A stretch of 33,779 bases of DNA from an uncultured Desulfobacteraceae bacterium (GTDB taxonomy: Bacteria > Desulfobacterota > Desulfobacteria > Desulfobacterales > Desulfatirhabdiaceae): the NCBI GenBank assembly GCA_903953895.1, contig CAJBLH010000266.1, positions 1 to 33,779 on the forward strand, given 5' to 3'. The notes beneath the pieces are model-generated. The model was not told the DNA's origin, did no database searches, and saw nothing but the letters and a program-made list of their open reading frames with translations. The translations under genes and the position numbers were made by a program. This document shows positions 14,808-33,620 of this stretch, piece by piece (the stretch's first letter is position 1; the number at the start of each line of letters is the position of its first letter).

Positions 14808-15785
14808 ATGACATCCGACATCACATCGCCGCTTGTACAAAAACCAATCAAGATGGTTTCCCCCTGTTCCGAATTGCTGGTAATCAGCGATCAGCCGGAC
14901 TGCACCCAGGCCCTGCGCGATATCTTCAAGCAAGATCACGCCATTTCCGCAGTCAGCAGCGGCGACCAGGCATTTCAGACATGCCGCAACAGATTGCCGG
15001 ACCTGATACTGCTGGATATCGTGATGCCGAACATGGAGGGACTTGAGATTTGCAGACGGTTGAAAGATGACCCGGATACTACAGAAATTCCGGTCATTTT
15101 CCTCATGGCGCCGGATCACCCGGAAGCCGAAACCAGCGCGATCGAAGCAGGCGCAGCCGATATCATCACCCAACCGATTCATCCGGCAGTCGCCCGCAGC
15201 CGGGTCAAAACCCACCTGACCCTGAAAACCCAATCACGCCTTCTGGAGTCACTGGCATTTATCGACGGCCTGACCGGTATCGCCAACCGACACCGTTTTG
15301 ATGAAGGCCTTGAAGCGGAATGGCGGCGTTGCAGACGACTCATCACACCACTTGCCATACTCATGATCGACATCGATCATTTCAAAATTTTTAATGAAGT
15401 CTATGGCCACCTGACCGGAGACCGTTGCCTGAAAGAAGTGGCAGCGATTCTGAAGGGGCAGATCGGCCGATCCCACGACATCTTGGCGCGTTACAGCGGC
15501 GAGGTGTTTGCCTGCCTCCTGCCGGACATCTATTTTGACGGGGCGATGCAAAAGGCGGAAGCCATGGTTCGGGCCGTCCATGACAGGGAAATGCCGCATC
15601 GCGATTCCAAAACCGCTCCGGTCGTTACCATCAGCATTGGAGTCATTGTCACCATACCCGGCCCGGACCGACAGCCCGGAGAGGTAATTTCCCAAGTTAA
15701 AATGCAGCTCTCCGAAGCCAAGCAACACGGACGGAATCGAGTATGCGGCCGGGAATTGCCGGGATATTTTGCCAATGCCCTCTAA
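14808..15785 (+). CDS. REC-GGDEF protein with degenerate active site
   Basis: 325 residues from the ATG at 14808 (AAGGGGG upstream). The receiver domain, about 20-140, keeps the phospho-acceptor Asp70 (LILLDIVMPNMEG), but the conserved Lys is Gln (DIITQPIHP) and the Thr position is Met (IFLMAPD). The GGDEF domain, about 165-320, keeps DGLTGIANRHRF, the metal-site Asp in MIDIDHFKIFNEVYGH and the AKQHGRNRV tail, but the signature reads R-Y-S-G-E-V-F (Ser230, Gly231, Glu232, Val233, Phe234) instead of R-Y-G-G-[DE]-E-F. Loss of the first Gly and the catalytic/metal Glu predicts little or no cyclic-di-GMP synthesis, so the domain may be a receptor or scaffold. No RxxD inhibitory-site motif was noted. 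arsR follows after 17 bases, probably on the same transcript. It diverges from the motility operon. Confidence 0.88.
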   Translation: MTSDITSPLVQKPIKMVSPCSELLVISDQPDCTQALRDIFKQDHAISAVSSGDQAFQTCRNRLPDLILLDIVMPNMEGLEICRRLKDDPDTTEIPVIFLMAPDHPEAETSAIEAGAADIITQPIHPAVARSRVKTHLTLKTQSRLLESLAFIDGLTGIANRHRFDEGLEAEWRRCRRLITPLAILMIDIDHFKIFNEVYGHLTGDRCLKEVAAILKGQIGRSHDILARYSGEVFACLLPDIYFDGAMQKAEAMVRAVHDREMPHRDSKTAPVVTISIGVIVTIPGPDRQPGEVISQVKMQLSEAKQHGRNRVCGRELPGYFANAL

Positions 15786-15802
15786 TAATTATGGAGTTTC
15801 TT

Positions 15803-16147
15803 ATGGATCAGTTCATCAAAGTCATGAAAGCCCTGTCAGATACTAGCCGGCTGAAAATCATCAAAATGCTTCAACATAAGCCCATGTGCGTCTGTGAAAT
15901 TCAAAAAGCCCTGGATATTCCGCAACCATCGGCATCCAGACACCTCAAAATTCTGGAAGACGCCGGACTGGCCATGAGTCAGAAAAGCGGGCTGTGGGTC
16001 AATTACAATCTGGCGGACGGTACCGACAGCCCGTATGCCGCCATTTTGTTGGGTGGGCTGAAACACTGGCTTGTCGATGATCCGGAAATTGTCCGGATCA
16101 TCGACAAGCTGCCGGAAATCCGAAGGGAAGATATCTGCAAAGTATAA
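15803..16147 (+). CDS. arsR: ArsR-family arsenic-responsive repressor
   Basis: 114 residues; the ATG at 15803 has GGAG seven bases upstream. A winged-helix repressor of the ArsR/SmtB family: KALSDTSRLKIIKML, recognition helix QPSASRHLKILEDAGL and wing KSGLWVNYNL. The As(III)-binding Cys-Val-Cys (C29, C31, in PMCVCEI) is in the classical ArsR position, so it should leave DNA when arsenite binds. It lies 17 bases after the GGDEF-like gene and is separated from the arsenic transport genes (from 18347) by an oppositely oriented AbiE pair and a 105-bp element. Its probable target is the inverted repeat at 18187-18214. Its stop is one base from the stop of the convergent AbiEi-like gene. Confidence 0.92.
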   Translation: MDQFIKVMKALSDTSRLKIIKMLQHKPMCVCEIQKALDIPQPSASRHLKILEDAGLAMSQKSGLWVNYNLADGTDSPYAAILLGGLKHWLVDDPEIVRIIDKLPEIRREDICKV

Positions 16148-16148
16148 C

Positions 16149-16772
16149 TTATATTTCGCTCAATTTTTTGGAAAAGTTAGAACCAAACCCTGCGTGGCCT
16201 AAAAGACGTCTTCGTAAGGGATCAAGTCTGCGAGACAAAGAAATCGGGAATTTTTTCGCCATTTCATTCATCGTCTCGACATCGATGCTGTCCAGCTCCA
16301 GTTCATCTTCGACGGGAAGAGATTTTCTGAGGTACAGGGTGTCCAATACCGCTTTTTCGGGTGTTGCGATGTAGAAATCATCGACCCGGATGAATCCGGA
16401 AAAAAGGATGGGAGAGATCTTTGAAAATTCGATGGTGACGCCCTGGTATGGAATATTTCTGCATTTTCCAACCGCCGGACTCAATGTGATGATGGTGCAG
16501 ACCACCGGGGATTGCAGGCTGACGCCATGATAATTCAAGGCCCATTCTCCGGATACATAGGCAGGCGGGCGGAGAAAGCAGCCTACGGTTTCCACCCGCG
16601 GAAAACCGCACAGAAAAGAATTGATGTAATGGCCTCTCATCACCCGATGAATCAATCCATTTTTCTGTGTACGGGATAAAAACATGGCCGGATGCGGGGT
16701 CAGTTTTTCCACATCTTCTATGCGGAACAGGCCGGGAAGAAATTTCAGCCGCTTTAATGTGGATTTTTCCAT
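16149..16772 (-). CDS. AbiEi-like antitoxin / transcriptional regulator
   Basis: About 207 residues. It resembles the AbiEi antitoxin family of type IV toxin-antitoxin (abortive infection) systems: N-terminal winged-helix part (FRIEDVEKLTPHPAMFLSRTQKNGLIHRVMRGHY), then a C-terminal part with VSGEWALNYHGVS and FYIATPEKAVLDTLYLR. These proteins usually repress their own operon and neutralise the AbiEii nucleotidyltransferase. A TTG at 16799 would extend the frame into the toxin gene; the ATG at 16772 is more likely and leaves five bases after the toxin stop. Here the antitoxin is the second gene, whereas the usual order is antitoxin first. It runs into arsR stop-to-stop. Confidence 0.82.
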   Translation of the reverse strand: MEKSTLKRLKFLPGLFRIEDVEKLTPHPAMFLSRTQKNGLIHRVMRGHYINSFLCGFPRVETVGCFLRPPAYVSGEWALNYHGVSLQSPVVCTIITLSPAVGKCRNIPYQGVTIEFSKISPILFSGFIRVDDFYIATPEKAVLDTLYLRKSLPVEDELELDSIDVETMNEMAKKFPISLSRRLDPLRRRLLGHAGFGSNFSKKLSEI

Positions 16773-16777
16773 TGCCG

Positions 16778-17644
16778 TTATTTCCAATAAATCCGGCAAA
16801 GGTTCTGCGATTGAAGCTGAGCGCTGACCTGCTGCAACGTCAGAATAAACCGATTGAATCCTTCTGTCTGGTATGCTGAAAAAATATCCGGCGGAATGAA
16901 GCGGGGAAGATCGGTATTGAGCGCATTTTCAATCTCTGGCAGCGATTCCGATCTCTGGAAAAAATCCAGTCCACGAGCCGGATGAAAGGGTACCCGGTAC
17001 ATGGACAATTTATTTTCAAGCGTCTGCCAGTTGAGGGAAGTATTCAACTGACTGACGATCCACCAGAGATCAAAGATGTCTCGTCCCTTGAGATATTGGC
17101 GCTCATACAGCGCTCGGATTTTGTCCGTCAAGATTTCTTCCGGCGTCTCCACCAGAAGAATGGTGCTGGAATAGGGTAAATAGAAATATCCCGATGTGAT
17201 CAATCGCGATACCTGTGGCAGATCCCGGAAAACATATTTCTGAGAACCGGGTGTTTGATCTGATTGAAGAAATTCGAATTCCAGCTTTACGGCAATCCGC
17301 TCTCGCCGTAGATCCGGCCGGTAGATGAAAAATGTTTTAAAGGCAGTTGCCCGGTTACCCTTGATCTGCTGTTCAGATTGACCGGCACCGAACTGAGCCA
17401 CACAGGCACGGGATACTTTGGTGATGACCCCCTTCAATATGGATTGAATTTTATCCGGCGGAAGGCAGGTGACGAAATCCAGATCTTCTGAAAAGCGGGA
17501 GCCACCATATACCCACCGCAGCGCGGTTCCCCCCTGAAAAACGATGTGCCGAGACCCGGCCTGCCCGTACAGCGCATCCAGCAGCAGCAACTGAAGCACT
17601 TCTGATTGCCTGACCCGTGTTTCGGTATATGTGGTCGCCATCAT
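16778..17644 (-). CDS. AbiEii-like nucleotidyltransferase toxin
   Basis: 288 residues of the nucleotidyl transferase AbiEii/AbiGii family. Visible motifs: IVFQGGTALRWVYG followed by RFSEDLDF (nucleotidyltransferase G-G and DxD core, about residues 37-57), VKLEFEF in mid-protein, and ETPEEILTDKIRALYERQYLKGRDIFDLWW, the conserved C-terminal Lys/Arg/Asp motif. Such toxins modify a cellular RNA target and arrest growth; with AbiEi they give phage abortive infection. All expected catalytic residues seem present. It is the first gene of the pair and begins only 25 bases from the end of palindromic element A, so its promoter must lie within or across that element. A GGG triplet three bases before the ATG is the only ribosome-binding-like signal. 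Confidence 0.85.
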   Translation of the reverse strand: MMATTYTETRVRQSEVLQLLLLDALYGQAGSRHIVFQGGTALRWVYGGSRFSEDLDFVTCLPPDKIQSILKGVITKVSRACVAQFGAGQSEQQIKGNRATAFKTFFIYRPDLRRERIAVKLEFEFLQSDQTPGSQKYVFRDLPQVSRLITSGYFYLPYSSTILLVETPEEILTDKIRALYERQYLKGRDIFDLWWIVSQLNTSLNWQTLENKLSMYRVPFHPARGLDFFQRSESLPEIENALNTDLPRFIPPDIFSAYQTEGFNRFILTLQQVSAQLQSQNLCRIYWK

Positions 17645-17669
17645 GAACCCTGAGCATGTAAATGGTTAA

Positions 17670-17774
17670 TATAGACGTTCAGAAAATTCATTTCGTGGCG
17701 TTATCGGTCGGAGATATACTACAGTATGATCTCCTCCCTGCTGCCTTGTGAAATGAATTTTCTGAACGTCTATA
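17670..17774. mobile_element. 105-bp palindromic MITE-like element, copy A
   Basis: Perfect 25-bp terminal inverted repeats beginning TATAGACGTTCAGAAA, and an internal second palindrome (GGAGAT-AT-ACT...AGT-ATG-ATCTCC), so the whole unit can fold into one long hairpin. A second copy of identical length lies inverted at 22487-22591; I count 7 differences in 105 positions. Termini are TATA...TATA, compatible with insertion at TA. No transposase is encoded. It sits between the abiEii-like start and a frameshifted small gene. Confidence 0.85.
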
Positions 17775-17805
17775 CTTCAAGCAATGACCTGATTGATTAC
17801 TTTAA

Positions 17806-18014
17806 TTAACTTATTTGTATAATATCGTAAATGCCCTGTGGCGGATGCTCCTCGGCCCAGGCAATGGCTTCATTCAAATCCTGCGATAACGCAGGATCAT
17901 GAAGCCAGCGTCGCTGACGGGAATGAATTCACCAATTTTCAGTATCCATTCTCCGGTTTCGGTCTGTCCTATCATCACGGTTTTACCGGCATATTGTTTG
18001 CCCGCTGCAGCCAT
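17806..18014 (-). pseudogene. Frameshifted small hypothetical gene
   Basis: From the ATG at 18014 the minus strand reads MAAAGKQYAGKTVMIGQTE through GEWILKIGEFIPVS and then hits a stop. Shifting frame near 17920 continues smoothly as RWLHDPALSQDLNEAIAWAE and EHPPQGIYDIIQIS to a TAA at 17806-17808. The two parts together make a protein of about 69 residues, so a one-base indel is likely. An 8-bp perfect hairpin (ATCCTGCG/CGCAGGAT) lies just past the break. No family was recognised. It ends 31 bases from palindromic element A. Confidence 0.5.
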
Positions 18015-18166
18015 CCTTCTTTTTTTTCAATGTTTCGCCTATCATGGATGTATGAATCTTGCAAACAAAATATATCCCCGATGGAATTAATGAATTCGAA
18101 TAGTTACATGATTTCAAACGTTTTAATATATTCATAATATATCTTACAGTTTTGATAAAATCGATA
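18015..18166. other. AT-rich non-coding stretch upstream of the arsenic operon promoter
   Basis: This stretch and the leader up to 18346 hold no convincing gene; the open frames crossing it lack ribosome-binding sites and protein-like composition. A small hairpin (TCTCCC/GGGAGA, 18309-18325) lies in the leader just before the permease ribosome-binding site. Confidence 0.45.
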
Positions 18167-18214
18167 TTGACATCCAATGTCAACATATCTATATTCAGAA
18201 TATTGGATATAGAT
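18167..18214 (+). promoter_or_regulatory. Arsenic operon promoter with overlapping ArsR-like operator
   Basis: TTGACA (18167-18172), a 17-base spacer and TATATT (18190-18195) form a strong promoter. An inverted repeat, ATCTATAT (18187-18194) against ATATAGAT (18207-18214), covers the -10 and the expected start site. Its size and AT-rich arms resemble ArsR/SmtB operators. A second perfect repeat, TTGACAT-CCA-ATGTCAA (18167-18183), covers the -35. Bound ArsR would block transcription of the genes from 18347. The predicted leader is about 145 bases. Confidence 0.7.
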
Positions 18215-18346
18215 ACGACCAAGCGTTCATTTGTAAAGCCATAAGAACCTGTCTTGACCATGGTTCCGGAAACTTTGATGGTACGCTGATACTGTAAATG
18301 TTTATCCCTCTCCCCCACTGGGAGACGGAGTTAAAGGAGATGTCTT

Positions 18347-19444
18347 ATGAAAGATATTGATGCCCAATCCTGCTGTTCGGTGCTGACTGACAAAGCAGAG
18401 ATTCTCGTCGGCTCAGCGGAAAAATCCCGTGCCCTTCGCTATGTCCTGTATATGGTTCCCTTATTGATCTTATGGGTGTTCATTTATCAGGAACTGGCGA
18501 ATTTCTCCCGCTTGATGACCTATTCCGTACTCCGGCTACAAGAAGGAAATCACCTGAGCAGCGCCATTGAATTTTTTATCTTCGAAACACCGAAAGTCAT
18601 GATGCTGCTGACCCTGGTGGTATTCGGCGTCGGAATCGTCCGCTCATTTTTTACCCCGGAGAAAACACGGGCCATTCTGGCAGGGAAAGGGGAATCTGTC
18701 GGAAACGTCCTGGCGGCACTTCTGGGAATCGTAACCCCGTTTTGTTCCTGCTCTGCAGTTCCTCTTTTTATCGGGTTTGTCACTACCGGGGTTCCTCTTG
18801 GCGTAACCTTTTCATTTTTGATTTCCGCCCCCATGGTCAACGAAATCGCGTTGGTATTGCTCTACGGCCTGTTCGGCTGGAAAATCGCCGCCATTTATCT
18901 GGGTACCGGTTTATTGATCGCCATGATCTCCGGATGGGTCATCGGCAGACTTCACATGGAACACCATCTGGAAGATTGGGTGCTTCAGATCAAAGCCGGC
19001 GGAAACGGCATGGAAGAGGAAAAACTGACCTGGGAGAACCGGATTCAGTATGGACTGGATGCCGTCAAAGACATCGTCGGAAAGGTATGGATCTATGTCG
19101 TGGCCGGTATTGCCGTCGGCGCAGGCATTCACGGATTTGTGCCCGAAGGGTTCATGGCGTCCATTATGGGAAAAGGCGACTGGTGGTCCGTACCCGTGGC
19201 TGTTTTGGTAGGTATTCCCATGTATTCCAATGCCGCCGGCATCATCCCCGTGGTTCATGCCCTGATCGGAAAAGGCGCTGCCCTCGGAACGGTTCTGGCC
19301 TTCATGATGTCCGTGATTGCACTTTCTCTGCCGGAAATGGTGATCCTGCGCAAAGTGTTAAAGCCCAAACTGATCGCAACTTTTGTCGGAGTGGTCGGGT
19401 TCGGCATCATGATCGTCGGATATCTATTCAACATTTTGATATAA
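18347..19444 (+). CDS. ArsP-like permease (DUF318/YraQ family)
   Basis: 365 residues with about eight hydrophobic segments; an inner-membrane permease of the family that includes the methylarsenite exporter ArsP. The signature TPFCSCSAVPLFIGF (around residues 129-143) contains the Cys-Ser-Cys typical of the family, and GIPMYSNAAGIIPV lies in the second half. The N-terminal QSCCSV adds a vicinal cysteine pair that might bind thiophilic metalloids. AAGGAG lies eight bases before the ATG. It is the first gene behind the ArsR-like operator, and the next gene starts 14 bases after its stop. Export of organoarsenicals or another soft metal(loid) is likely, but substrate cannot be told from sequence alone. 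Confidence 0.88.
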   Translation: MKDIDAQSCCSVLTDKAEILVGSAEKSRALRYVLYMVPLLILWVFIYQELANFSRLMTYSVLRLQEGNHLSSAIEFFIFETPKVMMLLTLVVFGVGIVRSFFTPEKTRAILAGKGESVGNVLAALLGIVTPFCSCSAVPLFIGFVTTGVPLGVTFSFLISAPMVNEIALVLLYGLFGWKIAAIYLGTGLLIAMISGWVIGRLHMEHHLEDWVLQIKAGGNGMEEEKLTWENRIQYGLDAVKDIVGKVWIYVVAGIAVGAGIHGFVPEGFMASIMGKGDWWSVPVAVLVGIPMYSNAAGIIPVVHALIGKGAALGTVLAFMMSVIALSLPEMVILRKVLKPKLIATFVGVVGFGIMIVGYLFNILI

Positions 19445-19458
19445 TTAAGGAGATCGTT

Positions 19459-19701
19459 ATGGAAATCAAGGTATTGGGACCCGGCTGCAGCAAATGCCAG
19501 CAGACCGAAAAAATCGTGAAAGAAGCCATTGCCGAAGCCGGAATATCCGCCAATGTTGAAAAAGTGACGGATATGATGGCGATTGCCGGGTATGGTGTGT
19601 TCGGCACCCCCGCCGTGGTTATAAACGGCGAGGTTAAAAGTGTTGGAAAGATTCCCAAAAAAGACGAGATCAAGAAATGGCTGGGTGGGACAATAATATG
19701 A
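19459..19701 (+). CDS. Small CxxC thioredoxin-like protein (redox-active disulfide protein 2 type)
   Basis: 80 residues with a minimal thioredoxin fold: MEIKVLGPGCSKCQQT (active-site Cys10 and Cys13), cis-Pro region GTPAVVINGE, and a C-terminal helix ending KKWLGG. Proteins of this type commonly sit beside ArsP-like permeases in anaerobes and probably reduce or hand over the metalloid or a permease disulfide in the cytoplasm. AAGGAG precedes the ATG. Its stop overlaps the start of the next gene (ATGA), suggesting translational coupling. Confidence 0.88.
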   Translation: MEIKVLGPGCSKCQQTEKIVKEAIAEAGISANVEKVTDMMAIAGYGVFGTPAVVINGEVKSVGKIPKKDEIKKWLGGTII

Positions 19702-20123
19702 AAAACCATTACACGAAGATTCAAACCGGATATATCATTGTTTCCGTGTTGTTCATTCTTTTTTTCAGTTTTCTGTATGCCCCGTCTGTTTCATACCTGA
19801 CGCCCTCTCCAGCGCAGGCAGCGGAAACAAAGGAAATTCCGGCCAAGGGGATGATCACCCTGGTGGACCTGGGTGCGAAAAAATGCGTGCCATGCAAAAT
19901 GATGGCCCCCATTCTTGAAAAACTGGAAAAAGCGTATCAGGGAAAAGCGCTTATCCATTTTTACGATGTGTGGGAGAATCGGGAACCCGCCGCGCGGTTC
20001 GGCATTCGGGCAATTCCCACCCAGATATTTTTCGACAAGGATGCCAAGGAAGTGTACCGGCATGAAGGGTTCATGAGCGAAGAAGACATTGTCGGTCAGC
20101 TTGCCAAAATGGGCGTAAAATAA
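19698..20123 (+). CDS. Exported thioredoxin-like protein
   Basis: 141 residues. An N-terminal hydrophobic stretch (about 11-35) followed by PAQAAETK looks like a signal peptide or anchor, so the thioredoxin domain should face the periplasm. The active site is Cys63-Val-Pro-Cys66 (KKCVPCKMM), with cis-Pro in RAIPTQIFFDKD. The start at 19698 overlaps the previous stop. A CcdA-like membrane protein follows after 19 bases, and such pairs pass electrons from cytoplasmic thioredoxin across the membrane. In this operon they may keep periplasmic or transporter thiols reduced during arsenic stress. Confidence 0.88.
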   Translation: MKNHYTKIQTGYIIVSVLFILFFSFLYAPSVSYLTPSPAQAAETKEIPAKGMITLVDLGAKKCVPCKMMAPILEKLEKAYQGKALIHFYDVWENREPAARFGIRAIPTQIFFDKDAKEVYRHEGFMSEEDIVGQLAKMGVK

Positions 20124-20142
20124 CCCCGTACCGGGAGATATC

Positions 20143-20847
20143 ATGATCGACACATTTTTTCTGACGGTAAACCAGTGGATGGCCGGCGGTACGCACCTGG
20201 CGATGGCAGGATGTTTTATCTGGGGAATGGTCAGCGTGCTGTTCAGCCCCTGTCATCTGGCATCCATTCCACTGATGGTCGCTTATGTCGGGGGGCAGAA
20301 AGAGCAGCCCAGACCGCTGCAGGCCCTGTTTTATTCGGTGGCATTTACCACGGGTCTTTTTTTCAGTATTGCCGCGATCGGCATCATCTGCGCACTGCTG
20401 GGCCGGATGCTGGGAGATGTCGGCAATTACTGGCAGATACTTGTGGGGCTCGTGCTGGTATGGGTCAGCCTCGGCATGTTCGGCGTCAAAGGCTGTTCCC
20501 TGAGCGGCGGACTGCTCTACCGGCTCAAATTCAAGGGGCTGTTGGGTGCGCTTGGCCTTGGCGTTGCGTACGGTACACTTTCCGGGTCCTGCACCTTCGG
20601 GTTCATCGCCCCGATTCTGGCCGTCATCACGGTTCAGCAGCAGATCGCCAGCGGCATCCTGATGATCCTGCTGTTTGCCGTCGGGCACTGCATCCCTATC
20701 GTTATCGCCGGTAGCTCGACGGCGCTGGTGCGGCGGGTTCTGGAAAACAGCGTCTGGCAAGGTGCTGGAAGCTGGTTTCGGAAAGGCGCAGGCGCTCTGA
20801 TCGGATCACTCGGAATCTATTTTATCCTGACGCCATGGGTATCATAA
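20143..20847 (+). CDS. CcdA-like transmembrane thiol-disulfide transporter
   Basis: 234 residues, about six membrane segments. The two CcdA/DsbD-type cysteine motifs are present: SVLFSPCHLASIPL (Cys37) and TLSGSCTFGFIAP (around residue 150). CcdA proteins carry reducing equivalents from cytoplasmic thioredoxin to periplasmic thioredoxin-like partners such as the product of the preceding gene. GGGAGA lies six bases before the ATG. Cytochrome c maturation genes are absent here, so the role is probably tied to the arsenic cluster rather than heme ligation. Confidence 0.9.
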   Translation: MIDTFFLTVNQWMAGGTHLAMAGCFIWGMVSVLFSPCHLASIPLMVAYVGGQKEQPRPLQALFYSVAFTTGLFFSIAAIGIICALLGRMLGDVGNYWQILVGLVLVWVSLGMFGVKGCSLSGGLLYRLKFKGLLGALGLGVAYGTLSGSCTFGFIAPILAVITVQQQIASGILMILLFAVGHCIPIVIAGSSTALVRRVLENSVWQGAGSWFRKGAGALIGSLGIYFILTPWVS

Positions 20848-20895
20848 AAACCTGCATTAAATCCGCCTTAACTTAACCAACTTCCAGGAGGACTC

Positions 20896-21981
20896 ATGTC
20901 AGCCATCAAAAAACTCTCTTTTCTGGATCGTTTTCTCACCCTGTGGATTTTCCTGGCCATGTTCCTGGGCGTATCCTGCGGATATCTGTTTCCGGAAGTC
21001 CGGGATGTCATCAACCTGTTTCAGGCAGGAACCACCAATATCCCCATTGCTGTCGGCCTGATTCTGATGATGTATCCACCGCTTGCCAAAGTCAAATATG
21101 AGGAACTGAAAGAAGTCTTTAAAAATACCAGGGTACTGCTGCTCTCCCTGGTTCAAAACTGGATCATCGGCCCGGTGCTGATGTTTTTTTTGGCCATATC
21201 GTTTTTATCCGGCCACCAGGAATACATGGTGGGTCTGATTCTGATCGGTCTGGCCCGCTGCATCGCCATGGTCATCGTCTGGAACGATCTGGCTTCCGGC
21301 GATACGGAATACTGCGCGGGTCTGGTGGCCTTCAACTCCATCTTTCAGGTTCTGTTTTTCTCGGTGTACGCCTGGGTGTTCATTACGGTGCTGCCCGAAT
21401 GGCTGGGCTTAAAAGGCATGGTTGTGGATATCTCCATCGGCCAGATCGCCGAAAGCGTGTTCATCTATCTGGGAATCCCCTTCATCGCCGGAATGATCAC
21501 CCGCTGGATCGGTTTAAAGACAAAGGGCAAGAAATGGTATGAAGAGCGATTCATCCCGAAAATCAGCCCGCTCACGCTGATTGCGCTGCTGTTTACCATT
21601 CTGGTGATGTTCTCCCTTAAAGGCGAATACATCGTCCAACTGCCGCTGGATGTCATCCGGATCGCCATTCCCCTCTGCATTTATTTTTTCGTCATGTTTT
21701 TCGTATCCTTTTTTCTATCCATGAAATTCAAGGCAACCTACGAGCAGACCACCACGCTAAGTTTTACCGCCGCATCCAACAATTTCGAGCTGGCCATCGC
21801 CGTGGCTGTCGCCGTGTTCGGCATCGACTCCGGCCAGGCGTTTGCCGCGGTGATCGGTCCGCTGGTGGAAGTTCCGGTTCTGATCTCTCTGGTAAATGTG
21901 GCCCTGTGGTTCAGGAAGAAATATTTTCCTTTTACCCAGCGCACGCCGACAGGCGTCTGCCATTTAACCTGCAAACCATAA
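20896..21981 (+). CDS. acr3: ACR3-family arsenite efflux permease
   Basis: 361 residues with about ten hydrophobic segments; an inner-membrane As(III) exporter driven by the proton motive force. The conserved cysteine is in [15 protein letters not shown] (Cys122) and the conserved glutamate in [13 protein letters not shown] (about residue 305), both needed for transport in studied ACR3 proteins. GGAGG lies five bases upstream of the ATG. It is the fifth gene behind the ArsR-like operator. No arsC reductase is in the window, which fits a sulfidic or anaerobic setting where arsenite is already the main form, or reduction by another enzyme. Confidence 0.96.
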
Positions 21982-22034
21982 AACGATTCAAAAAAACGCT
22001 CTTGGCCTTAGGCAACTCGAAAAAAATAAACTGC

Positions 22035-22056
22035 CATGATTCCTTCATGAATCATG
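22035..22056. other. Hairpin between acr3 and the PsiE-like gene
   Basis: Perfect 8-bp inverted repeat, CATGATTC/GAATCATG, with a 6-base loop. No U-run follows, so it is not a standard terminator. It may be an operator or an mRNA processing or stability element. Confidence 0.35.
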
Positions 22057-22089
22057 CCGGGTTGAAAAACCTGACAAAAGGATAAAGGC

Positions 22090-22491
22090 ATGCTCAATCT
22101 GCTGAAACGGTTCGAGTCCTTCATCGTACTGACGCTCATCTTGATGATGATGGTTGTCGTGTCGCTCTCCACCATCGAACTTGGCTGGCTGCTGATAAAG
22201 GATATAATCACTCCGCCGGTTGTGTTGCTCGAGATTGATGAGATTCTTGAAATTTTCGGCTTCTTCATGTTGATACTTATCGGACTTGAGCTTATAGAAA
22301 CCATCCGGGCCTATTATGTCGAGCACTCCGTGCATGCGGAAATCGTGATCAAGGTAGCGATGATCGCCATCGCCCGAAAAATCATCATCCTGGATATAAA
22401 AGACCTGCCAAGCCTTACATTGATTGGTATCGCCGCCATCGTTATTGCGCTGAGTACTGCATATTATGTGATCAAACGCATGAAACTATAG
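22090..22491 (+). CDS. PsiE-like (phosphate-starvation-inducible) membrane protein
   Basis: 133 residues with four hydrophobic segments (about 12-35, 47-70, 88-110, 112-128), matching the PsiE family. The family's role is unknown; E. coli psiE is induced by phosphate starvation, which is of interest because arsenate mimics phosphate. AAAGG precedes the ATG. The last sense base and the stop codon (TAG, 22489-22491) lie inside the terminal repeat of palindromic element B, so the element fixes the end of the protein. The length is typical, so the coding region is probably nearly complete. It follows acr3 by 108 bases and may be read through from the arsenic promoter. Confidence 0.82.
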   Translation: MLNLLKRFESFIVLTLILMMMVVVSLSTIELGWLLIKDIITPPVVLLEIDEILEIFGFFMLILIGLELIETIRAYYVEHSVHAEIVIKVAMIAIARKIIILDIKDLPSLTLIGIAAIVIALSTAYYVIKRMKL

Positions 22492-22591
22492 ACTTTCAGA
22501 AAATTCATTTCGCAAGGCAGCAGGGAGGAGATTATACTGTAGTATATCTCCGACCGATAACGCCGCGAAATTATTTTTCTGAAAGTCTATA
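22487..22591. mobile_element. 105-bp palindromic MITE-like element, copy B (inverted relative to copy A)
   Basis: Begins TATAGACTTTCAGAAAATTC and ends with the imperfect inverse. Its reverse complement matches copy A over all 105 bases with about 7 differences. Position 8 and its pairing partner near the other end are both changed (G-C in copy A, T-A in copy B), so terminal pairing is kept. It supplies the psiE-like stop codon on one side and cuts off a vapC remnant on the other. Confidence 0.85.
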
Positions 22592-22830
22592 TCGGCCCCA
22601 CCGGATAAAGATTTCTAATGCCATCGGCAGTGCTCGCTGAAGATGGGATAAGCAGATATGGTAGCTGGCCAGTCAGTAGAACACGGTAAATTTTCAAGAG
22701 GTACAACAAACTCATCAAGTGCCTTCCGGTTCTTTCTCTGATACAGGATGTTCTCAACCCCATGCTCAAGCTCTGCCAGGGTTATCTCCGAAATACCAAT
22801 ATCGCCTGCTTGGTGGGTTATAAAGCTTGA
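22592..22830 (-). pseudogene. vapC (PIN-domain toxin) remnant
   Basis: On the minus strand the translation HQAGDIGISEITLAELEHGV, then ENILYQRKNRKALDEFVVPL matches the middle of VapC-type PIN ribonucleases. The N-terminal LDTN motif is missing upstream. After about 70 codons the frame is broken; a shifted frame gives NLYPVGPI, corresponding to the conserved PIGxxD motif. Exactly there palindromic element B begins, and the PIN C-terminus is absent. So the gene has lost both ends and contains indels. No vapB antitoxin is left. Confidence 0.7.
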
Positions 22831-22848: not shown

Positions 22849-23271
22849 ATGAAATTGGATTTGGATATCCTCACATCTGCCGTCGCCGCCATTCCGGAAA
22901 TCGCCGCATGCTATCTGTTCGGATCGGCAGCCAATAACGAACCCGTCGTCAATGACATCGATTTGCTGATCCTGGTGTTTCCCGAGGCGGATGCCGAAAA
23001 AGTTCTATGGACAGCCGCCGAGAAAATCAGCGATGCCGTCAATCTGCCGGCTGATATGATGGATATTTTGCTGTTCGATCTAACCATGGCCAATCCGTGG
23101 GTATTGTATGCGGCTGTCACAAACGGCATTCTGATCAAGAATGCATCACCGGAGCTTCTTGGAGACAGAATTGAGAGTCTCTCTGTCTATTTTCTGGAAA
23201 ATGAGCCTGTCATTCAGCGAGCTGCTCAGTTGAACCGTGAGATGATCGAGGAAGTATGCGGCAATGGATAA
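22849..23271 (+). CDS. mntA: MntA-like minimal nucleotidyltransferase antitoxin
   Basis: 140 residues. Nucleotidyltransferase core: CYLFGSAANNEPVVNDIDLLI gives Gly25-Ser26 and Asp36-x-Asp38 (GSx9DxD), and DMMDILLFDL holds a further acidic segment. In HepT/MntA (type VII) systems this protein adenylylates a tyrosine of the HEPN toxin and so neutralises it. Start at 22849 with GAGAGG upstream. It overlaps the HEPN gene by eight bases, which is the usual coupling in this pair. Confidence 0.9.
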   Translation: MKLDLDILTSAVAAIPEIAACYLFGSAANNEPVVNDIDLLILVFPEADAEKVLWTAAEKISDAVNLPADMMDILLFDLTMANPWVLYAAVTNGILIKNASPELLGDRIESLSVYFLENEPVIQRAAQLNREMIEEVCGNG

Positions 23272-23677
23272 AGACCGTATTGAAACCTATCTTCAGACAA
23301 TCGCTATGGAAACCGCTGCCATCGTTGATGTTCTGAAGGATTCCGATGAAGAGTTACTCGCGTCTCCTCACCAGATCAAAAGTTGTAAATATTCCCTGAT
23401 CGTGATTTCCGAAGCGATTGCCAATACGCTTCAGCATATTCTTGCCAAAAAATATCACACGCCTATCGGTGGTTATACGGAGGTTTTTATCAAAGCAAAA
23501 AACTTCAAGCTGTTATCGAATGAAATGATTGAAAGGCTGCAGCCGTTCATCCGTTTTCGAAACATGCTGGTTCATCAGTACTGGCGGGTCGATGATACTG
23601 TTTTCCTCAACAATATCAGGGCAGGCGTGTCCGACTTTAAAGGATTCATCCATGACATCAGGAAAATCATCGACTGA
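23264..23677 (+). CDS. hepT: HepT-like HEPN toxin (DUF86)
   Basis: 137 residues, all-helical HEPN domain. The ribonuclease/modification motif RX4HXY is exact: Arg99-Asn-Met-Leu-Val-His104-Gln-Tyr106. Tyr106 is the expected site of AMP addition by the MntA partner encoded just upstream, and Arg99/His104 the RNase residues. A GAGGAAG ribosome-binding site lies within the end of mntA. Both genes look intact, so the system is probably functional. Confidence 0.92.
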   Translation: MDKDRIETYLQTIAMETAAIVDVLKDSDEELLASPHQIKSCKYSLIVISEAIANTLQHILAKKYHTPIGGYTEVFIKAKNFKLLSNEMIERLQPFIRFRNMLVHQYWRVDDTVFLNNIRAGVSDFKGFIHDIRKIID

Positions 23678-26917: not shown

Positions 26918-29425
26918 AACGTTTTTATCCGATAGTACGCGGCTGATAACTTCAGCAAGCCCCTTCAACTGATATGGTTTCCCCAGAAACGCATTGGGGA
27001 GTTCAGGATGTTCCTCTGTCATCACCTGAGCCTCGTCGAAGCCGCTGGAAAGGATGACCGGAATTTCCGGCGATATTTTACGCAGCGCCGCCAGCGTGTC
27101 CCATCCATTCATGCGAGGCATGGTCAAATCAGAAAGAACGCAGCATATCTCACCCTGATGTCGCTGAAACACCTCAACCGCCTCGACACCATCCTTTGCA
27201 TCCAATACGGTAAAGCCAATGCGCTTCAACATTGTCATGACCAACTGGCACACATCCGGTTCGTCTTCGACGACCAGCACCGCACCGGTCCATTTGATTT
27301 CAGTATCTTTACCCGCTTTTTTCAAAGAAAACGGAAGGGCTTCGGCGGATACCGGCAAAAAAACCCGAAAGACACTTCCCCGACCCGGGCGACTCTCGAC
27401 GGTAATCCCGCCATCATGAGCGTTTACTATCCCGACAACCACGGATAGACCCAATCCCCGGCCGGTAAACTTCGTGGTGTAAAACGGATCGAATATCTTT
27501 TCGATATCTTGATTTCTGATGCCACATCCCGTATCCATGATTTCCAGACACGCATAGACGCTTTCTTTCGGCTGCCAGTCGATCGGAAATCGTCTTGCTG
27601 CGGGAATATTTTCATGCGGAACCGTCTTGACCGACAGGGTGATGGTTCCGGGCTTTTCATCGGCGGCTTCCCAGGCATTGGTGATCAGATTGGTTAAAAT
27701 CAACTGAATCTGGTGCTTATTTGCCTTGATCACCGGCCCGGTTGCCAGTAGATCGGATGTAAAGATGATGTCTTTCGGAATTAAAGCCTCGAGCTGGGGC
27801 AGGCTGAGGCGGCACGTCTCGGATGCATCCAGCGGTTCCCGTTTGCCGGGTGTCTGTCCGAGATAAGTCAGCATCAGGCTGCTCATCTGCGCCGCTTTGC
27901 CGGCTGCTTTCTGTGAACTGGCCAAGGGTTTTGCTATATCCGAATCCTGAGGCAGATCATTCATGGCCATTTCAAGATTTCCCATTACAACATAGAGCTG
28001 ATTGTTGAAATGGTGTGCGATAGCGCCCGCCATACGGCCCAGGCTTTCAGCTTTTTGGGCCTGTTGCAATCGATATTCCAGTTCTTTCCTTTCTGCCTCC
28101 AACCGTTTTTCGTTGGTAATGTCGCGCTGTGTTCCGGTCCAGATAATATCACCATTTTCCAACATCCTGGGCAAAGACTCCATATGCATGAATCTGACTT
28201 GATCATCAACGATGAACCGTCCTTCCCACTGAAATGAACCCCCTGTTTTTCTGGCTGTTTCATTTGTCTCGATCAAATGGTTTATATCTTCGGGATGGAT
28301 GCAATCAAACGCCATCTTTGGATTTTTCAAGACTTCATCGCAGTCAACCGCCATCATCTCACAAAAACGCGGGCTGACATAATCGAAAACAACATCGCCT
28401 TCAGACTTCATCCTCATTTTATAGATGCCGACCGGGATTTGCGCCACCATTTCATCATAGGCGAGTTTACTTTCCTGCAATGCCGTCTCCGCCTGCATGC
28501 GCTCGCTGATGTCGCGCACTATCGCAAACATGACTTTTTTCCCCTTCCATGTATAAGGCCCCCCCACAATTTCTACGGGAAAGACGGTCCCATCTTTTTT
28601 CTTGTGAAATCGTAGCGGAATATAGGTGGTTCCATCAGATATCGCCTGTCGGGTGGCTTGATCCGATTCCTGGTGCTGCACCGTAATATCGTGAATGGTC
28701 ATTTGGCCCATGAGTTCCGTCTTGCTGTATCCATAAAGCTTTACATAGGCGTCGTTGACATCCAGAAATCGCAGCGTCTGCAGATCAAAGATGCTGATCG
28801 CATTCAGTTCGTTATGAAAAAGCACCCGGTATTTTTCTTCGCTCTCCTGCAGCGTATTCTCTGCCAGTTTGCGTTCGGTGATATCGCTGATGGCCACCAG
28901 AAGCTGTGGATCGACGGATTCCGATCGGATGGACTTGGGAGTTGTCAGCTTAGCTGCGGATAATTGCCCGAAAACCGGTACTCCGGACTTGGAAAGAAGA
29001 CCGAATTCCAGTTTTTTTCCATCAGGATGTTTAAAAAAAGAGCGGAATCGTGATAGAAACACCTGACGGTCCGATGGGTTCAGAAACTCGCTCAATCCCC
29101 TGCCCATGACCTTGTCGGGGTCTATTCCCACCATGTTGCAGAATGTCTCATTGACTTTGTTGATCGTTGCATTTTCATCGAGCACCAGGTAGCCGACTGG
29201 CGCCTGATGGAAAAGAATCCCGAATCGGTCTCTGGAATGCGTCAAGTCTTCCTGTGATCGCTGCAACTCCTCGTTTTGTATTTGAAGTTCGATTTGATGA
29301 ACCTGTAGTTCATGAATCAATCTTGCAGCTTTTTCAGCAGAAAGCGCCTGATGCGACGAACTGTCTTCAGGAGTCAGAGCCTCGGCCTTCCTCCGCAATG
29401 CGTCGAGCGAGTCCATAGCGTTCAA
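26903..29425 (-). CDS. Multi-PAS hybrid histidine kinase with receiver
   Basis: About 840 residues. Order: coiled coil (about 30-65, HELQVHQIELQIQNEELQRS), three PAS domains (about 68-190, 200-320, 325-450), phospho-acceptor His in GRMAGAIAHHFNNQL (about 470), ATPase domain with DTGCGI and GRGLGLS, and a C-terminal receiver with Asp in CVLSDLTMPRMNG. It is cytoplasmic, with no membrane segments. A TTG start at 29425 has GGAGAG seven bases upstream; the ATG at 29416 is the alternative. Next upstream is the CheB-CheR-PAS fusion, which has no kinase of its own, so the two probably work together. Its C-terminal ~240 residues are a close paralogue of the truncated gene at 32913-33620. Confidence 0.92.
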   Translation of the reverse strand: MNAMDSLDALRRKAEALTPEDSSSHQALSAEKAARLIHELQVHQIELQIQNEELQRSQEDLTHSRDRFGILFHQAPVGYLVLDENATINKVNETFCNMVGIDPDKVMGRGLSEFLNPSDRQVFLSRFRSFFKHPDGKKLEFGLLSKSGVPVFGQLSAAKLTTPKSIRSESVDPQLLVAISDITERKLAENTLQESEEKYRVLFHNELNAISIFDLQTLRFLDVNDAYVKLYGYSKTELMGQMTIHDITVQHQESDQATRQAISDGTTYIPLRFHKKKDGTVFPVEIVGGPYTWKGKKVMFAIVRDISERMQAETALQESKLAYDEMVAQIPVGIYKMRMKSEGDVVFDYVSPRFCEMMAVDCDEVLKNPKMAFDCIHPEDINHLIETNETARKTGGSFQWEGRFIVDDQVRFMHMESLPRMLENGDIIWTGTQRDITNEKRLEAERKELEYRLQQAQKAESLGRMAGAIAHHFNNQLYVVMGNLEMAMNDLPQDSDIAKPLASSQKAAGKAAQMSSLMLTYLGQTPGKREPLDASETCRLSLPQLEALIPKDIIFTSDLLATGPVIKANKHQIQLILTNLITNAWEAADEKPGTITLSVKTVPHENIPAARRFPIDWQPKESVYACLEIMDTGCGIRNQDIEKIFDPFYTTKFTGRGLGLSVVVGIVNAHDGGITVESRPGRGSVFRVFLPVSAEALPFSLKKAGKDTEIKWTGAVLVVEDEPDVCQLVMTMLKRIGFTVLDAKDGVEAVEVFQRHQGEICCVLSDLTMPRMNGWDTLAALRKISPEIPVILSSGFDEAQVMTEEHPELPNAFLGKPYQLKGLAEVISRVLSDKNVSRIV

Positions 29426-32912: not shown

Positions 32913-33620
32913 CTATTGTTCGTTATTTGCAAGTACGCGGTTGATGATTTCTCCAAGCACCTTGATCTGATAGGGTTTACCCAGAAACGCATCAGGGCGT
33001 TCAAGGTGATCTTCCGCCATCACCTGAGCCTCATCGTAGCCGCTCGACAGGATGACCGGAATTTTCGGCGATATACCGCGAAGCGCTGCCAGTGTCTCCC
33101 AACCGTCCATCCGCGGCATCGTCAAGTCGGAAAGAACACAGCGGATCTCATGCTGGTGTTGCTGAAACACTTCCACCGCCTCGACACCGTCTTTTGCTTC
33201 AAGCGCGGAATATCCCAGACGACCCAGCATGATCCTGGCCATGTTGCGCACCATCGGGTCATCTTCGACCACCAGCACCGTACCGGCTCCGGTAATTTCC
33301 GGAATGCCGCCGGTTTTTTCCAGAGAAATGGCCACGGCTTCGGCGGATACCGGCAGAAAAACCCGAAAAATGCTGCCCCTGCCCACGCTGCTTTCAACCG
33401 TTATTCCCCCGCACTGAGTACCGACCATTCCCAGCACTGTGGGTAACCCCAGCCCCCGGCCGGTAAATTTTGTGGTAAAAAACGGATCAAAGAGCTTTAC
33501 AATATCTTCAGTTGCAATCCCGCATCCCGTATCCGAGACTTCTAGGCAGGCATAGATACGCTCTTTCGGGTGCCAATCCACAGGAAAGCGGTTTAAATCA
33601 GGAATATGCTCCGAAGCCAC
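32913..33620 (-). pseudogene. 5'-truncated hybrid-kinase paralogue (partial HATPase + receiver)
   Basis: The 235-codon frame (GTG at 33620) matches the C-terminal part of the hybrid kinase at 26903-29425 nearly end to end (FPxDWxPKE..YACLE, TTKFTGRGLGL, CVLSDLTMPRM). Homology continues upstream to about 33635 (ISVKTV) and then stops; an in-frame TAA lies at 33648-33650. The PAS domains, the phospho-acceptor His and the N-box of the ATPase are missing, so it cannot be a working kinase. The receiver (about 112-232) has all its key residues and could still be made as a stand-alone receiver. Its stop is 75 bases before the CheB-CheR start, on the same strand. Confidence 0.75.

Follow-up and report, generated by a model that had tools for sequence, protein, structure and literature searches.

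Described TA-targeting elements and the pair in the window

RUP of Streptococcus pneumoniae is described as an element of 107 bp with a TA target, present in 108 copies and having terminal inverted repeats (TIRs) similar to those of IS630-Spn1 (PMC2229807). In the same account, the Correia/NEMIS elements of Neisseria form a class of about 107 bp with 5'-TA ends, longer variants carrying an internal insert, and transcripts that form hairpins (PMC2229807). A further system, reported by Flood et al. (2016) from a dsrA intron of Ca. Thiomargarita nelsonii, is a Correia-like miniature inverted-repeat transposable element (MITE) with TATAG ends and a long hairpin, for which that paper reports no strong candidate for a parent insertion sequence (IS) (PMC4853749). 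Here we describe a family of MITEs, two of which face each other around arsenic (ars) genes in a stretch of 33,779 nt (hereafter, the window), which is one whole contig (CAJBLH010000266.1; C266) of the genome of an uncultured Desulfobacteraceae bacterium (GCA_903953895.1; G000; 315 contigs, 5.47 Mb).

On the basis of the published descriptions, RUP is the best parallel to this family in size, TA target and IS630-like TIRs (PMC2229807); however, it belongs to another host group, and the search of G000 revealed no partner IS. The size class and the TA ends are also common to the Correia/NEMIS elements, again as described (PMC2229807). The Thiomargarita dsrA-intron MITE is alike in its TATAG ends and its hairpin (PMC4853749) and may have the TIRs of this family; ends with this TIR are present in a T. 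nelsonii assembly (L127), with at least 25 matches. No earlier description of the family was found in the open PMC text, in which strings of its ends and core were also searched.

The repeat scan of the whole window returned a single inverted pair (17669-17777 and 22484-22592; 109 nt, 93% complementary), with a spacing of 4706 nt between the arms. Both copies are 105 bp long, TA included at each end, and span TATAGAC...GTCTATA: copy 1 lies at 17670..17774 on the + strand, its target-site duplication being at 17670-17671 and 17773-17774, and copy 2 lies at 22487..22591 on the - strand, that is, in the opposite orientation. The ends read TATAGACNTTCAGAAAA, and the core of copy 1, on the + strand, is GCGTTATCGGTCGGAG. 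The scan bears out the preliminary description of this DNA, which had reported two 105-bp palindromes in opposite orientation and 93% alike, and the single hairpin then proposed for each copy is also upheld: the folds have energies of -52.8 and -47.1 kcal/mol (z -10.8 and -8.5), and 0 of 200 shuffles were equally good for either copy. Rfam at gathering scores gave nothing in the window.

These repeats are members of a dispersed MITE family, i.e., of short elements with two TIRs and without a transposase gene. Our reading, to which we assign a probability of about 0.92, is that both copies are independent insertions of a non-autonomous mini-transposon of about 105 bp, proposed to have been moved by an IS630-family transposase in trans. 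According to this mechanism, the (Tc1/mariner-like DDE) enzyme would act in trans on matching TIRs, would excise the element and would insert it at a TA, which would be duplicated. The mobile or invertible arsenic unit was in all probability a false lead, and a well-defined MITE family replaces it.

Copy number, ends and empty sites

A genome-wide search for the terminal repeat, as the preliminary description had suggested, revealed far more than two copies: the 27-nt end (TIR) gave 172 matches at <=3 mismatches (reversed pattern, 0), and the core gave 98 at <=2 mismatches (reversed control, 1). The initial element search is a lower bound, 40 of 143 candidate places having been scored and all 40 having matched. 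The copies are dispersed, their flanks are unrelated and their ends are near-fixed: of the 30 copies read, 22 start precisely with TATAGAC and stop with GTCTATA (105 bp in 21 of them and 104 bp in one), and the other eight have a point change in an end, one of these being 109 bp long. Truncated solo ends are present in many loci. At nine of the 30 copies, removal of the element would leave an open reading frame (ORF) of at least 120 codons across the site, these being mechanical ORFs and not proven genes. As an observation in its own right, two end-to-end elements with a common TATA, and an element broken by a different TATAGCGTG...-type sequence, were seen at L130 (679-876) and L136 (6181-6389).

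An empty site for copy 1 was found in two genus-mates. The G006 sequence is GGTTAA-CA-CTTCAAG, against GGTTAA-TA-[101 bp]-TA-CTTCAAG in the window, with a gapless junction, and in G004 the flanks are joined in GTTGA-TA-CATTCAG. Since the flanks are joined in both genomes, the target of copy 1 was a TA, which became duplicated upon insertion. Another element, L027, is missing at the corresponding position in the genus-mates G001, G002 and G006. The empty site with a TA duplication, foreseen in the preliminary description, was therefore obtained for copy 1 but not for copy 2, whose flank in the PsiE-like gene remained without a match when the six other genus members were searched.

The all-against-all comparison of the fetched loci gave no empty site; directed searches in the genus did give them. 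When 13 joined sites were searched in the genus, a junction-spanning alignment was obtained for L027 only. Both flanks of L004 were matched in G001 with other DNA between them, and for the remaining joined sites the outcome was a single flank, short matches at scattered places, or no match at all.

IS630 elements with matching ends and the distribution of the family

Among 30 DDE_3 loci from 22 genomes, no transposase was seen to be bounded by MITE ends; at L245, a MITE-like pair stands next to a transposase fragment. One IS (L240), with weakly similar ends, led on to G120 and G310. The query was an IS630-type transposase of G007, whose ends are faintly like the MITE end, and it led to one element in each of these genomes that is bounded by the MITE end. 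The G120 element (1326 bp, transposase of 363 aa) has the ends TATAGATGTTCAGAAAAATAATTTCA and TATAGTTTTTCAGAAAAATAATTTCA, and the G310 element is 1107 bp long with a transposase of 318 aa; both proteins are over the NCBIfam IS630 cut-off. Their ends agree with the MITE end at 21-25 of 27 positions; as background, 1864 of the 1878 TATA sites in the scanned pool score <=17, and the 14 higher ones include the G120 and G310 ends themselves, fetched repeatedly. Like the MITE, these elements have TA ends and a TATAGnnnTTCAGAWAAWTAATTT-like TIR; they differ from it in their length of 1.1-1.3 kb, in carrying a transposase gene and in that the MITE core was not seen in them. A transposase gene with the same ends, of the kind that the preliminary description had proposed to look for, thus exists in other genomes of the order, whereas none was detected in G000, and an IS630 group with these ends is now identifiable.

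G120 also harbors a second copy of the IS, 98.7% identical over 1238 bp, in which no match to the first 88 bp was obtained, as well as an element of 105 bp that has ends of this kind and is different inside. In G099, whose transposases are decayed, two transposase-linked ends read ...ATGTCAT; the G of this motif is present in 21 of 35 other ends among the G099 matches listed and in 47 of 64 in its genus-mate G045, and in no end of other genomes among the matches listed.

After G120 and G310, this transposase pair is matched best in G269, G215 and G064, where the ends are of another type (type B), approximately TATAGnnnTTAAGAAAAAnATTTTGGGG. In the tree of 16 transposases, rooted at the midpoint, the five rows with type A and type B ends stand together with a support (93/88) that does not reach the starred level. 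The type B rows, three in number, are united at 98/98, and G310, which has type A ends, branches with them at 99/99, so that type A is not a separate clade. The 133 distinct core sites in the fetched loci comprise 126 of type A, two of type B and five unclear ones. The core with type B-like ends (TTAAGATAAAGATTTTGGG) was found in G055 (L365, 13698) and in G000 (L076, about 1861, - strand; a weak match). The occurrence of the conserved core with two TIR types is the single unusual point of the family.

Some of our data weigh against insertion by an IS630-family transposase acting in trans. The empty site of G006 has CA instead of TA, which we read as a point change, and a clear TA at the empty place of L027 is seen in G002 only. 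No transposase of this group was detected in G000 (0 matches, with five of ten candidates scored; 0 of eight candidates), a draft of 315 contigs in which a collapsed IS could be missed; of its two DDE_3 matches, one is an ISAzo13-type gene and the other an IS630-like element whose ends are different. For this reason, we infer the partner from other genomes, and the group that moved the element in trans would now be absent from G000. The MITE core is not in the G120 and G310 elements, in the sequence read, and neither is therefore shown as a direct parent. Moreover, no DDE_3 match was found in G055, which has the top core count (181) of the 57 genomes.

The IS630-like element of the window's own genome (L031) was considered as a parent and rejected, since its ends, TATAGTTCATAGCAGATGAATTGATA, are not the MITE end; likewise, in 30 loci of the order with L031 matches, no MITE end was found among the best inverted pairs listed. 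L031 itself (G000:C126) is an IS630-like element of 1389 bp with near-perfect TIRs, apparently lying inside another transposase-like reading frame.

As to the distribution of the family, 15 of 57 genomes, from 12 of 51 genera and counting G000 itself, have the end pattern. The core counts are 181 in G055, 98 in G000, 68 in G031, 54 in G039, 51 in G045, 34 in G052 and 30 in G054, i.e., from tens to more than 100 copies in some genomes of a mostly uncultured order of sulfate reducers; the core control matched once in six of the 57 genomes, and lone core matches in relatives, being close to this control rate, are not taken as evidence of the family. The strand bias that the G055 cores seemed to show proved to be an artefact of the matches listed, a 400-kb check having found an exact minus-strand core near G055:C1:1134286 that was not among them. 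In L379, L382 and other G055 stretches, the apical stem is replaced by another palindrome, GTAGGGGTTCAAGATTTTGAACCCCTAC.

The search of named genomes gave at least 95 stretches, and 24 of 95 are titled Thiomargarita, Parabeggiatoa, Thiotrichaceae or Gammaproteobacteria. Assemblies of Thiomargarita and of Parabeggiatoa carry these ends; in the six Thiotrichaceae or gammaproteobacterial loci printed, the ends are common to this family and the core is not. In the contigs L177 (Methanococcoides) and L141 (Geobacteraceae), the end lies near the contig edge, and these contigs may be misbinned. With blastn at E 0.01, copy 1 had no match among plasmid and phage records, and the end pattern did not occur exactly in the viral contigs.

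Hairpin conservation, gene surroundings and alternative explanations

When 20 elements from several genomes were aligned, the hairpin showed strong retention of pairing through compensatory change: 13 of 27 pairs were changed on both sides, with 48 cells against 15.4 +/- 2.9 in shuffles, the structure having been derived from this same scored alignment and related rows inflating compensatory scores; sliding the alignment left 0 to 4 pairs with a two-sided change. Within G000, such a change is seen in two of 41 pairs, a value reached by 90 of 500 shuffles. The paired terminal change between the two window copies, on which the preliminary description had drawn, is real, but it is weak evidence within the genome, as no column pair varies more than the one concerned (8/102), in which 15 of 26 distinct two-sided rows pair and 11 mispair. 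The retained palindromy can be due to arm-to-arm conversion or to selection.

It is conceivable, although we regard it as rather doubtful, that the element is mobile and at the same time has a selected function in its conserved core, as an RNA hairpin, a site for a host protein or a sub-terminal site for the transposase. Indeed, the core persists from genus to genus and beside either TIR type, and the apical stem varies in sequence and stays paired. However, arm-to-arm conversion together with the common descent of a successful MITE could yield the same pattern, the printed Thiotrichaceae elements retain the ends without the core, promoter-like matches lie close to the mean of the shuffles, and the search for terminator-like sites gave none. 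Along the same line, and as a speculation that we hold to be unlikely as a whole, a single MITE lineage whose asymmetric core of about 30 nt is conserved might have persisted beside one IS630 clade across Desulfobacterales, its TIRs (A/B) changing with the clade; same-end elements might have crossed to or from giant gammaproteobacterial sulfur bacteria, and the core might have been kept for its function, be it a transposase sub-terminal site, a host-factor site or an RNA signal.

Concerning the genes around the two copies, the statement that they bracket the arsenic operon is inaccurate, since the arsR-like regulator gene (15743..16147, + strand; NCBIfam HTH_metalloreg over cut-off; synteny) lies outside the pair. 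The first ars gene within it codes for an arsP-like permease (18347..19444, +; Pfam ArsP_1 5.3e-74) and the last conserved one for an SBF-family exporter (20896..21981, +; Pfam SBF 1.1e-62), which is conserved alongside ars genes in genus-mates and which we take to be of the ACR3 type. The 3' end of a PsiE-like gene (22090..22491, +; Pfam PsiE 2.2e-27) is within copy 2, which contributes the stop codon of this ORF (22489-22491). The gap between arsR and arsP is 7 bp in four contigs of three genus-mates (two contigs of G001, G002:C529 and G006) and 38 bp on G002:C422; in G004 and G005, an arsR is followed by the SBF/ACR3-type gene, 4 and 17 bp on. In the window, a 2.2-kb block (16148-18345) separates arsR from arsP, and the homology to relatives covers arsR up to 16147 and arsP from 18345 or 18346.

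This block holds copy 1, an AbiEi/AbiEii-like pair and more. The pair consists of an AbiEii-like nucleotidyltransferase toxin gene (16778..17644, -; Pfam AbiEii 5.7e-26; PADLOC 1.8e-32; no NCBIfam match) and an AbiEi-like antitoxin gene (16149..16799, -; PADLOC AbiEi 6.8e-19; NCBIfam AbiEi far under cut-off; no Pfam match at 0.001). The abiE part is found in G004 and G006 at places without ars genes, the homology stopping near window position 17832; therefore, copy 1 belongs to the abiE block and, copy 2 being at the end of the PsiE-like gene, the two copies delimit no single unit. Copy 1 sits 25 bp from the AbiEii-like start codon. A conserved block of 27 nt (17802..17828, strand unassigned) is identical in the three genomes when the window is aligned with G004 and G006, its surroundings having diverged, and it is a candidate promoter or operator of the abiE pair; the promoter scan called no site at 17802-17828. 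The local effect of copy 1 is likely to be a long hairpin in the predicted 5' leader of abiE, between the operon and the candidate promoter block.

A different explanation, that the pair bounds an invertible segment switching the ars genes, is in our opinion very unlikely. Near-identical inverted repeats of 105 bp could recombine, but in this genome they are too common for a dedicated switch, and the inversion of 4.7 kb envisaged in the preliminary description was not seen in the contigs compared: arsR, arsP and the genes that follow are oriented as in the G001 and G006 contigs read, where, as here, arsR, arsP and the thioredoxin, DsbD-like and SBF/ACR3-type genes all have the same direction. 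We consider even less probable that the copies are the ends of a composite unit carrying the ars genes as a block. Such a unit would account for the inverted orientation of two elements flanking a 4.7-kb gene segment, and for copy 2 no empty site was found that would exclude it on that side. However, each copy is a whole element, both ends included; G006 and G004 show, beside abiE, an empty site that belongs to copy 1 by itself; arsR lies outside the pair; and the ars genes are together without the elements in G001 (two contigs) and G006. Relatives that hold the segment without the elements thus speak against the mobilised unit of the preliminary description, and the many copies and the empty sites favor the mobility of the element itself. 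Moreover, 98 copies would by chance give about eight pairs as close as this (within 4.8 kb), of which about four would be inverted, and the facing arrangement around the ars genes is most simply a coincidence.

The least probable alternative is that of a REP/BIME-like palindrome spread by a RAYT (HUH) enzyme. The elements are palindromic and dispersed, and 21 of the 30 copies read are without an ORF of at least 120 codons spanning the element-free site, all of which this explanation would accommodate. On the other hand, matching ends flank IS630 transposases, and a TA duplication and long terminal repeats, which are typical of DDE elements, are what copy 1 exhibits. Independent insertions of a mini-transposon moved by an IS630-family transposase remain, in our opinion, the explanation that best fits the two copies of the window.

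Some additional features of the window can be mentioned. On the - strand (16149-17644), the AbiEii-like toxin gene comes first and the AbiEi-like gene second, whereas the reverse is the usual order. An MNT/HepT-like pair (22849-23677; Polbeta and HepT-like Pfam matches) adjoins copy 2. Finally, a direct repeat of 300 nt with 78% identity (26925-27224 and 32923-33222) possibly derives from paralogous genes.

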